Shown one piece after another: positions 29,804 through 35,302 of a stretch of 41,893 nt of DNA. The DNA is from Spirochaetales bacterium (GTDB taxonomy: Bacteria > Spirochaetota > Spirochaetia > JAFGXN01). The translations under genes were made by a program, and so were the position numbers. Every line of letters starts with the position of its first letter. The first letter of the stretch is position 1. The stretch is taken from assembly GCA_016936615.1 (NCBI GenBank), contig JAFGXN010000048.1:1-41893 (forward strand), in the 5' to 3' direction. The notes below the pieces were generated by a model. That model saw only the letters and a program-made list of their open reading frames with translations, made no database searches and was not told the origin of the DNA.

Positions 29804-30190
29804 TTATTCCTCAACCTTTGCAAGAACAAATGCACGGAGAACTTCCAAATCGTCTATAGCTTTACGCATATCGGCATCATTGATTTCATATGGATAAGGG
29901 TAACGAATTTCTACTGAATAATCAGTCAAATCGATGCATCTCTGTTTTAGTTTTTCAAATTCAGAATCAATCTCTGTGCATTTTTTAAGAATTTCAACTA
30001 AATCATGAGTCTTTTTTATCTCGCCAGAATTTTTCACGATAAATGATTTCAACAACTTTTCTGCAGACTGCTGACAATGAAAACAAACAATTTCTAATAA
30101 TGGCTTATGAGCTTGTGCAAGTAAAATTGCAGCATCGTAATCATCTTGAGCAACATCAATCCATCGCAAAAATTCTTCATCCCTACTCAT
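29804..30190 (-). CDS. HEPN domain protein (PF05168-like), paired with MNT
   Basis: WIDVAQDDYDAAILLAQ...CFHCQQSAEKLLKSFIVKNSGEIKKTHDLVEILK...IRYPYPYE. Confidence 0.88.
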   Translation of the reverse strand: MSRDEEFLRWIDVAQDDYDAAILLAQAHKPLLEIVCFHCQQSAEKLLKSFIVKNSGEIKKTHDLVEILKKCTEIDSEFEKLKQRCIDLTDYSVEIRYPYPYEINDADMRKAIDDLEVLRAFVLAKVEE

Positions 30191-30530
30191 AAATAGAAAC
30201 TCCATTTTCTTCAATTTCTTTTTCAATACTGCTCAAACTGCTAGACCGCTCATAAAACTCATCAAAAGAATAGACCAGTAAATCAAGAGGAATTGAGACA
30301 AAATCATACAACTCTCGCCTTATTTTACGCAGTAAATCAATCTTTCTAATATCACTATCTGTCAAAATACAAAGATCCAAATCACTATCTGCGGTTGCGG
30401 TTCCGTCCGAATATGAACCAAACAAAATAACTTTTTTTACATCCGAATTCATAGAGAGAATCTGGCGAATTTTCAACAAGACACCCTGAATATTTTCCAA
30501 AAAAGTACCCTCATATTTAATATAACACAT
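30183..30530 (-). CDS. MNT-type nucleotidyltransferase
   Basis: VKKVILFGSYSDGTATADSDLDLCILTD signature; overlaps HEPN gene start. Confidence 0.92.
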   Translation of the reverse strand: MCYIKYEGTFLENIQGVLLKIRQILSMNSDVKKVILFGSYSDGTATADSDLDLCILTDSDIRKIDLLRKIRRELYDFVSIPLDLLVYSFDEFYERSSSLSSIEKEIEENGVSIYE

Positions 30531-32980: not shown

Positions 32981-33009
32981 TTGACCGAATCAAAATTCGC
33001 AAATAGAAT
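32981..33009 (+). promoter_or_regulatory. putative sigma70-type promoter of BRO/rSAM cassette
   Basis: TTGACC, 17 nt, TAGAAT, 22 nt before the BRO ATG. Confidence 0.7.
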
Positions 33010-33031
33010 AAATTAATAGGGTGAGGGAAAA

Positions 33032-33886
33032 ATGACAGACGATCAACCCCCAATTGTTTTTGAAAACCAGACAATTCGCAGACACTTTGACGAATCTGAA
33101 GAGAAATGGTATTTCTCCGTTATCGACGTAGTAGCAATACTAACAGGAAGCGTTAATCCTCGCGATTATTGGTTTAAGATGAAAATCCGCGTTAGTAATG
33201 ACGATGGAATTCAACTGTCGACAATTTGTCGACAGTTGAAAATGAAAGCCCCAGATGGGAAAATGCGAGAGACCGACTGCGCCGATGTAGAATCCCTTCT
33301 GAGAATAATCCAATCTATTCCGTCGCCAAAGGCAGAACCCCTCAAGCAATGGCTTGCAAAAATTGGCTATGAAAGAATACAGGACATAAGCGACCCCTCC
33401 CTTTCTCTTGACCGCGCTAGAGAATTCTGGAAAAAACACGGCAGAAGTGAAAAATGGATTCAACAGAGAATGATGGGGCAGGAAACTCGCAACAAACTGA
33501 CCGATTACTGGAAAGACCATGAAATCACAAAAGAAAACGAATTTGCAATTTTAACAAATATAATTCACCAGGAGTGGAGTGACATTTCTGTTAAAGATCA
33601 CAAAGAAATCAAAGGCCTCAAGACCCAAAACCTACGAGATCACATGAGCGAGGCAGAACTAATATTCACAGCCTTAGCCGAACTATCAACCCGACAGATC
33701 GCAGAAAGCGAAAATGCTACAGGAATGACAGAAAATGCAGAAGCAGGAAGAACAGGTGGCAAGATTGCAAAAAAAGCCCGTTTAGAGCTCGAAGAAAAAA
33801 CAGGAAAAAATGTAGTAACCGGTGAAAACTTTTTACCACCAAATAAAAATGTGAAACAAATCATCGACACAGACAAGGAAAAATAA
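33032..33886 (+). CDS. BRO-N / DinD-like domain protein
   Basis: FENQTIRRHFDESEEKWYFSVIDVVAILTGSVNPRDYWFKMK...LSTICRQLKMKAPDGKMRETDCADVESLLRIIQSIPSPKAEPLKQWLAKIGYERIQDISDPSLSLDRA. Confidence 0.92.
   Translation: MTDDQPPIVFENQTIRRHFDESEEKWYFSVIDVVAILTGSVNPRDYWFKMKIRVSNDDGIQLSTICRQLKMKAPDGKMRETDCADVESLLRIIQSIPSPKAEPLKQWLAKIGYERIQDISDPSLSLDRAREFWKKHGRSEKWIQQRMMGQETRNKLTDYWKDHEITKENEFAILTNIIHQEWSDISVKDHKEIKGLKTQNLRDHMSEAELIFTALAELSTRQIAESENATGMTENAEAGRTGGKIAKKARLELEEKTGKNVVTGENFLPPNKNVKQIIDTDKEK
33210..33240. repeat. perfect 31-bp palindrome inside the BRO gene
   Basis: TTCAACTGTCGACAA-t-TTGTCGACAGTTGAA. Confidence 0.97.
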
Positions 33887-34278
33887 TGAAAGCGAATAAA
33901 ATCGGTATCACAGCTCTAACAATTGTAAACATAATCTGGTTAAGCTTCTCTGTCTTTATGATAACAGAGCAACCCGTTGCAGGATTAATTATGCTAATCC
34001 CATTAGGTATCAGTCTGATAACTTTTTTTATAATCAAAGTTGTCAAAAAAAAGACAACATTCAAAGCGTTGAAATATGCAAACCTGGCATTCTTTATCCC
34101 CGCAGGTATAATTTCTATAATTTTATCATGGTACATAAACTCACTTCCTCAATCAACAATCGGATTTGTTATAGATCTTTCTAAAACTGGAAAATATATA
34201 GAAGAAAAACCCACCAGGAATATCATTGAAGAATCAAACGAAAAAGAGAAAAGGACTTTTCATGATATCCAGAAATAA
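33886..34278 (+). CDS. small membrane protein of unknown function
   Basis: About three transmembrane segments then charged tail; TAATG overlap with BRO stop. Confidence 0.65.
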   Translation: MKANKIGITALTIVNIIWLSFSVFMITEQPVAGLIMLIPLGISLITFFIIKVVKKKTTFKALKYANLAFFIPAGIISIILSWYINSLPQSTIGFVIDLSKTGKYIEEKPTRNIIEESNEKEKRTFHDIQK

Positions 34279-35302
34279 ATGCAAAAAATTTATGTTCAAA
34301 GCCGCTAAACAATTAGGATTTATTGATTCTCCAGTTTCTGTACAATGGATCTCAACACACTCCTGCAATTTTTCATGCGAGCATTGCATGGTAAATGCCG
34401 GAAAACCACTGGAAAACGAGCTGCAAACAGACGAAATAAAAAAAGCAATCGATGATATGGTAGAACTAGGTGTAAAATACTTTGCAGTTGCAGGAGGCGA
34501 ACCTCTTCTACGAAAAGATATCTTTGAAGTTCTATCCTATGCAAAAAGAAAAGGACTCAGAATATCGTTATCAACAAACTGCTCTCTTATACATCTGCAC
34601 AAGGCAGAAATTGAAAATCTAAAATTAGATGCTATTATGGTCAGCTTAGACGGATTAAAAAATAATCACCAAAGAATTCGAGGGGAAAATAATAATTTCG
34701 AAGAAGTCATAGAATCCATAAAATTTTTCAAAAAAATAAAAATCAAAAAAATCGCTGTCAGCACAATAGTTTACAAGTCAAACCTTGAAGAACTGGAAGA
34801 AATACGAGATGTAATTTTTCCTTTAGGATGTAACCACTGGTATATAAATCTTCCGAGACCTGAAGGCAGAGCAAAAACCAAAGAGTGGCTCTTTCCAAAC
34901 CCAATACAAATCATAAACCTCTTCAAATTCATCGAAGAAAACAGAAATAAATATAAAATCGATATATGCTCCGAAGCTGGATACCTCGGAAAATGGAACA
35001 ATATACTCAGAAATAACTCGTTCTTCTGCAGTTGCGGCTTAATCTCCTGCGCAATCATGGCAAATGGAGACATAATGGCCTGCCCAATCTTCGATGAAAA
35101 CCCCTACAAAGAAGGAACCCTCCGCGATAAATCCTTCAAAGAAATCTGGACAGCCGGCATGAAAAAATTTCAATCCATACCCCTCAGTTCAGATTGCAAA
35201 ACCTGCATCCACAACCCCAATTGCCTCGGCGGCTGCAAAGTAATGCAAGCCCTGAAAGCCCCCTGCCTAAAAGAAGCATGGGAAAATAACTTTCAGGGTT
35301 GA
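34262..35302 (+). CDS. radical SAM / SPASM domain protein
   Basis: CNFSCEHC (CxxxCxxC), AVAGGEPLLRKD, SLDGLKNNHQRIRG; C-terminal Cys cluster CSCGLISCAIMANGDIMACPIFDENPYKEGTLRDKSFKEIW...CKTCIHNPNCLGGC; start revised to MISRNK. Confidence 0.93.
   Translation: MISRNKCKKFMFKAAKQLGFIDSPVSVQWISTHSCNFSCEHCMVNAGKPLENELQTDEIKKAIDDMVELGVKYFAVAGGEPLLRKDIFEVLSYAKRKGLRISLSTNCSLIHLHKAEIENLKLDAIMVSLDGLKNNHQRIRGENNNFEEVIESIKFFKKIKIKKIAVSTIVYKSNLEELEEIRDVIFPLGCNHWYINLPRPEGRAKTKEWLFPNPIQIINLFKFIEENRNKYKIDICSEAGYLGKWNNILRNNSFFCSCGLISCAIMANGDIMACPIFDENPYKEGTLRDKSFKEIWTAGMKKFQSIPLSSDCKTCIHNPNCLGGCKVMQALKAPCLKEAWENNFQG

Follow-up and report, generated by a model that had tools for sequence, protein, structure and literature searches.

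Three closely packed genes, encoding a BRO-N protein, a small membrane protein and a radical SAM enzyme, raise the question of whether they form one dedicated system or whether the BRO-N gene at their head is a module of its own. They lie in the window analysed here, i.e. the whole stretch of 41,893 nucleotides from a Spirochaetales bacterium (contig JAFGXN010000048.1, assembly GCA_016936615.1). A sequence-only reading had described them as packed into a single unit and had suggested a regulator or DNA-binding sensor combined with a membrane effector and a modifying enzyme. The analysis points to another organisation, in which the BRO-N gene appears to hold, within its own coding sequence, the palindromic site that its own protein reads.

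Gene organisation of the locus

The BRO-N gene is an ORF encoding 284 amino acids (33032-33886, plus strand). It is followed on the same strand by the gene of a three-transmembrane protein (33886-34278, 130 aa), whose start overlaps the BRO-N stop as TAATG, and by the gene of a radical SAM/SPASM enzyme (34262-35302, 346 aa), which overlaps the membrane protein gene by 17 nt. The three packed ORFs and both overlaps are present as the sequence-only reading had described them. The sigma-70-like promoter that it had noted, TTGACC-N17-TAGAAT, is likewise found as letters at 32981-33009 (plus strand), matching 10 of 12 consensus positions; this candidate was assigned by consensus match only, and promoter-like matches in the region number 14 against 8.1 (sd 3.1) in shuffled sequences, a modest excess. 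Rfam and tRNA scans returned no matches. On the minus strand, at 29804-30530 of the window, two adjoining small genes resemble a HEPN/MNT nucleotidyltransferase toxin-antitoxin pair, and a DUF86/nucleotidyltransferase pair also adjoins the BRO-N gene of a Parabacteroides plasmid (L126).

BRO-N homologues were found in 42 of 393 genomes drawn from the spirochaete phylum. At 29 other spirochaete BRO-N loci that were read, no relative of the membrane protein or of the radical SAM enzyme occurred within about 1.5 kb (0/29). The claim that the trio forms one unit did not survive this co-occurrence search, as the three genes rarely adjoin in relatives.

The membrane protein and the radical SAM enzyme

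The two downstream products agree with their earlier descriptions. The 130-aa protein contains hydrophobic stretches at residues 8-26, 32-50 and 62-87 in addition to a charged C-terminal tail, and the enzyme passes the Pfam cut-offs for both Radical_SAM (E 3.4e-27) and SPASM (E 1e-6), with the expected CX3CX2C motif at residues 35-42 and a SPASM-like set of later cysteines (258, 274, 312, 315, 321, 325 and 335). Its best NCBIfam and PDB relatives are SPASM peptide maturases (mycofactocin MftC, TIGR04133 and SkfB), which have the CX3CX2C motif and the SPASM cysteines in common with it. Unlike these curated maturases, the enzyme misses every NCBIfam curated cut-off shown by a wide margin, the best score being 155 bits against a cut-off of 500. 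A viperin-like PADLOC assignment (E 2.8e-26) was rejected, since the viperin equivalog cut-off was missed (76 of 180 bits), and the match is put down to the similarity common to radical SAM proteins.

When some 85,000 genome assemblies were scanned with short exact patterns, a method that finds close relatives only, a single close relative of the enzyme, 65% identical, came to light in a Patescibacteria MAG (L011), directly downstream of a homologue of the membrane protein (55% identity over residues 1-93). No orthologue of the enzyme at this level was present in the 393 spirochaetes or in any other Patescibacterium among 380, and only generic relatives of it were found in phages or plasmids; the membrane/radical SAM pair is a rare conserved unit. 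No BRO-N gene was found in a search of the L011 genome. Since the pair occurs there without BRO-N, and BRO-N loci occur without the pair, a fixed three-gene cassette was rejected. The pair makes up one unit, preceded in the window by BRO-N as a module of its own.

The membrane protein is the only small neighbour of the enzyme. Comparison of the two known pairs shows no conservation of its tail: that of L011 carries two CX3C motifs (CYEMC and CINNC), both absent from the window copy. This difference makes the membrane protein a weak candidate for a RiPP precursor. In L011 the pair (273-1734) adjoins a clpP/rny/L34-rnpA-yidD region. Elsewhere in Patescibacteria (L043:1480-2873, minus strand) a SPASM radical SAM gene directly follows that of an unrelated protein of 90 aa, whose C-terminal part contains a hydrophobic segment.

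Family and predicted fold of the BRO-N protein

The identity of the first gene product was borne out by Pfam Bro-N (PF02498), matched at residues 17-109 with 37.6 bits against a gathering cut-off of 25.6 (E 3.6e-9). The protein also matches PADLOC PDC-S13 over its full length (residues 1-282 of 284, E 2.6e-123), a family listed there as a single-gene phage-defence candidate, and phrog_15286 (E 4e-91). It had no NCBIfam match and was not among the matches of a DinD query at E<=1e-20, though G000:C159 was. In an AlphaFold model (mean pLDDT 85.7) a winged helix-turn-helix, with helices at residues 30-38 and 43-58 and strands at 67-72 and 78-84, precedes a helical C-terminal part. The helix at residues 43-58, encoded at 33158-33205 (plus strand), is the predicted recognition helix.

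In the PDB, the predicted fold is matched best by DdrC of Deinococcus radiodurans (8u0g, 7udi and 7qvb; E 1.7e-6), known as a protein that binds DNA lesions and compacts DNA. DdrC resembles the model in its N-terminal winged helix and helical C-terminal part, but differs in sequence (about 12% identity), and the TM-score normalised to the query is only 0.3-0.4.

A palindrome inside the BRO-N gene

A perfect 15+1+15 palindrome, TTCAACTGTCGACAATTTGTCGACAGTTGAA, missed in the sequence-only reading, lies within the BRO-N ORF at 33210-33240, about 50 nt downstream of the recognition-helix codons, and is proposed as the self-operator of the gene. It encodes residues 60-70 (IQLSTICRQLK), the start of the wing. 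For comparison, 96 homologous genes were picked by protein similarity from spirochaetes, from plasmids of Bacteroidota, Campylobacterota and Chloroflexota, and from viral contigs. A palindrome with at least 9 of 12 pairs occurs at the identical codons in 90 of the 96, and four others carry it in a shifted register. It is absent from two Chloroflexota plasmid genes (L127 and L128), both of which lie on Chlorohelix plasmids downstream of ParA/ParB-type partition genes.

The homologues contain 69 distinct 25-nt palindrome sequences, yet these are palindromic at the same codons, so the arms covary. Mean pairing is 10.6 of 12, compared with 6.7 after synonymous-codon resampling within each gene. 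Coupling extends to synonymous codons across the arms (L and QL), where TTG occurs with CAA-CTG 31 times and CTG with CAG-TTG 19 times, with three exceptions; protein-level constraint cannot explain this coupling. These comparisons indicate that the palindrome is conserved beyond what the protein would require.

Correspondence between recognition helix and half-site

Each column of the protein alignment was tested for association between sharing of the residue and sharing of the half-site (+3 to +8) at matched overall identity; the resulting statistics come from related sequences and hence are not strict probabilities. Residues 45, 48 and 49, which are D, F and K in the window protein, are the top columns of the whole protein (z 6.9, 6.6 and 6.0) and lie on the same face of the predicted recognition helix. 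Columns 42, 53, 52 and 44 rank next, and there is no signal beyond about residue 80.

The triplet at 45/48/49 and the half-site correspond almost one to one. NKV occurs with GTAACC in 14/14 genes, ARK with GTCACG (7/7), KNK with GTCACC (6/6), RSD with TCGTAC (7/7), K(N/S/G)D with TCGGAC (10/10), D(F/Y)(K/R) with GTCGAC (7/7), (V/T)RV with GTAACG (6/6) and KSV with GTAG(T/C)C (11/11). Single residues follow rules of their own: V49 accompanies A at +5 (35/35) and D49 accompanies TCG (20/20); at +6, K45 goes with G (11/11) and R45 with T (8/8); and R48 pairs with CG at +7/+8 (13/13) and A48 with GC (4/4), whether residue 49 is V or K. In five exceptional cases A at +5 accompanies K or R at residue 49. 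As read from these genes, the residue-to-base code is modular, the rules recurring in separate backgrounds.

When the triplet was used to predict the half-site hexamer, with ties given to the most distant relative, 93% of hexamers were recovered. The corresponding figures were 17% when the nearest relative, judged by the remainder of the protein, served as predictor and at most 32% when triplets of variable columns were drawn at random. In a tree built from residues 85-265, about 61 changes of palindrome class are counted; of the 27 sister pairs, 20 differ in both palindrome and triplet and seven share both, without exception. The assignment of this site and this reader is strongly supported by sequence evidence. 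The match between palindrome and recognition helix lends strong support to the earlier suggestion that BRO-N is a DNA-binding regulator.

DinD, phage antirepressors and defence operons

A palindrome of this kind also occurs in DinD, which shares with the window gene a BRO-N domain, a helical C-terminal part and the corresponding position of the palindrome within the ORF, while differing in its half-site family (DHFxxxxxMV segment). In Escherichia coli K-12, dinD (b3645; L148:2261-3085), which stands alone and is SOS-induced, carries TGACCATTTCGAGGAGATCCTCGATATGGTCA. Among DinD-type genes below 90% identity, 76/84 show 8 or more of 12 pairs at this position; mean pairing is 9.9, compared with 6.7 once synonymous codons are resampled. 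Association is highest for residues 35 and 38, with the i, i+3 spacing seen in BRO-N, and three residues alone predict 43% of the hexamers, compared with 29% for the nearest relative. In one DinD-like gene (L157:1503-2261) a second strong palindrome, AACTTGAAGTCACAATTTGTGACTTCAAGTT, is found downstream in the same frame.

Two main N-terminal versions of dinD occur in E. coli, the K-12 type in at least 1,887 genomes and the other in at least 2,794, and they differ both in the helix (SEYRHF or RDWRNF) and in the palindrome; the predicted DinD site of the other allele is GACCATTTCGTTGAAACCACCAAAATGGTT. The two versions concern the N-terminal 246 nt. In most of the alleles read that have the other N-terminus, the C-terminal part is nearly identical to that of K-12, so that module exchange is directly visible.

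Phage BRO-N antirepressors (Ant) are classically viewed as binding repressors, not their own gene. They share the Bro-N domain and a palindrome with the window gene, and their C-terminal parts differ from it. In most of the genes examined the palindrome lies over the KGxxxxxTLGG codons; the best odd-centred palindrome with at least 9 of 12 pairs is in the same codon phase in 72/86, and the association peaks at helix positions -19, -18, -17 and -14. Phage-type antirepressors with this palindrome include L133, L134, L177, L188, L191, L193, L208 and L212.

Several homologues of the window gene form part of CRISPR-Cas, restriction-modification and Wadjet operons. Some PDC-S13 genes are flanked by hsdM and hsdS, by Cas12a and cas4, by cas3 and cas4, or by cas4 and cas1, and others precede hsdR, JetA or an MmeI-type enzyme. 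Overlaps of start and stop codons like that in the window are frequent among them. Many homologues have no tightly coupled downstream gene, and any role of BRO-N in defence is conjectural.

Proposed mechanism and alternative explanations

We consider it quite likely, from the sequence relationships described above, that BRO-N is an autorepressor with an intragenic operator, heading its operon. The protein would be a sequence-specific winged-helix DNA-binding protein, probably acting as a dimer, and its cognate palindrome would be the one about 50 nt downstream of its recognition-helix codons. At that position, with the promoter before it and the partner genes after it, the bound protein would block transcription of its own gene and of those that follow, by roadblock or occlusion; control of the operon by a roadblock autorepressor would call for a self-specific site located in just this way. 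The genes so controlled would be those of the membrane protein and radical SAM enzyme in the window, and restriction-modification, CRISPR-Cas or Wadjet genes in relatives. DNA damage is a possible inducing signal, if SOS-induced DinD and DdrC are taken as models. Reader and site belong to one short module, with about 50 nt between them, so that one recombination event could swap the specificity while keeping the loop intact, and co-resident copies would not cross-regulate.

The site appears to be private to the gene. Allowing up to three mismatches, no second copy of the 25-nt site was found in the genome of the window, and none upstream of the gene. Looser half-site patterns were no commoner in the genome than reversed controls. 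Copies of the palindrome acting as regulon targets elsewhere in the genome were rejected, none being found beyond chance; a single site in the genome indicates a private site rather than a regulon.

Co-resident copies bear on an alternative in which self-recognition serves exclusion, the protein blocking incoming elements that carry the same BRO-N allele, as in phage immunity groups. The family does occur in phages, plasmids and defence loci, PDC-S13 has its PADLOC listing as a defence candidate, and in no spirochaete genome do two copies share a palindrome class (0/27 pairs, 3.06 expected). With P about 0.03, however, this deficit is weak, and copies that avoid cross-repression would yield the same pattern. 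Strict mutual exclusion of equal palindromes per genome was rejected as suggestive only, being contradicted by E. coli strain NZ_CP024275.1 (L388), in which two tandem dinD genes are of one class. We regard exclusion as unlikely.

The palindrome might instead act in mRNA, as a hairpin recognised by the BRO-N protein or a nuclease in translational autoregulation, and Watson-Crick covariation of the arms would indeed preserve an RNA stem as well. In 82 genes below 90% identity the arms form 900 Watson-Crick pairs, 19 G-U pairs and 147 others, so that G-U accounts for 19/166 (11%) of the non-Watson-Crick pairs compared with 17% by chance. The lack of G-U enrichment in the window family fits a DNA duplex site better than an RNA stem, and base-specific reading by a helix face of the winged helix is likewise easier to reconcile with DNA than with an RNA stem, whose groove is narrow; a hairpin is, in our judgement, very improbable.

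Even less credence is given to one dedicated system in which a BRO-N regulator and a membrane effector are joined by a radical SAM enzyme that modifies the membrane protein. The overlapping, packed genes and the conservation of the pair in L011 speak for it, whereas the occurrence of the pair without BRO-N, that of BRO-N without the pair, and the unconserved membrane-protein tail speak against it; under the autorepressor reading, the membrane and radical SAM genes would simply be co-regulated by BRO-N. The least probable account has no operator at all: templated mutation (quasi-palindrome correction) would maintain the palindrome, and the linkage would be hitchhiking, the N-terminal segment recombining as a block. 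Only about 50 nt indeed separate reader and palindrome, and E. coli dinD does show block exchange, but the association peaks at residues 45/48/49 and declines at residues 51-60, which are nearer the palindrome, the same residue-base rules recur in different backgrounds, and the top DinD columns share the i, i+3 spacing.

Generality and comparison with known systems

The matching of an internal site with its own reader can probably be extended to the BRO-N superfamily, including defence-operon proteins, DinD (that of E. coli K-12 among them) and phage antirepressors. Such a gene would be self-addressing: the DNA coding for its wing would be a palindrome read by the adjacent helix through a simple residue-to-base code, and the two would be exchanged as a cassette, giving rise to new, mutually blind specificities. 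Autoregulators and intragenic operators are known kinds; the open-licence literature searched yielded no description of a superfamily whose operator is formed by the DNA encoding the DNA-binding domain and moves together with its reader. If true, this would define a distinct class of regulatory genes, with operator and reader physically united.

Of the DNA-binding proteins of phages and bacteria that await explanation, BRO-N proteins are some of the commonest, and DinD is an SOS protein of unclear role; a helix-matched palindrome would provide a predicted DNA target for each such protein from its sequence alone. It would also explain the swapping of the dinD N-terminal part between E. coli strains, suggest how some CRISPR-Cas, restriction and Wadjet operons are controlled, and supply a collection of orthogonal autoregulators whose code can be read.

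Among known systems, the controller (C) proteins of restriction-modification loci would work alike, as small self-specific autoregulators inside a defence operon. They are Xre-type helix-turn-helix proteins with operators upstream of their gene, whereas the candidate operator of BRO-N lies inside the ORF and its predicted fold is a winged helix. The exchange of N-terminal modules resembles the swapping of HsdS target-recognition domains, in that a recognition module is replaced in an otherwise conserved gene; unlike in HsdS, the module exchanged in BRO-N and DinD would carry its own DNA target.
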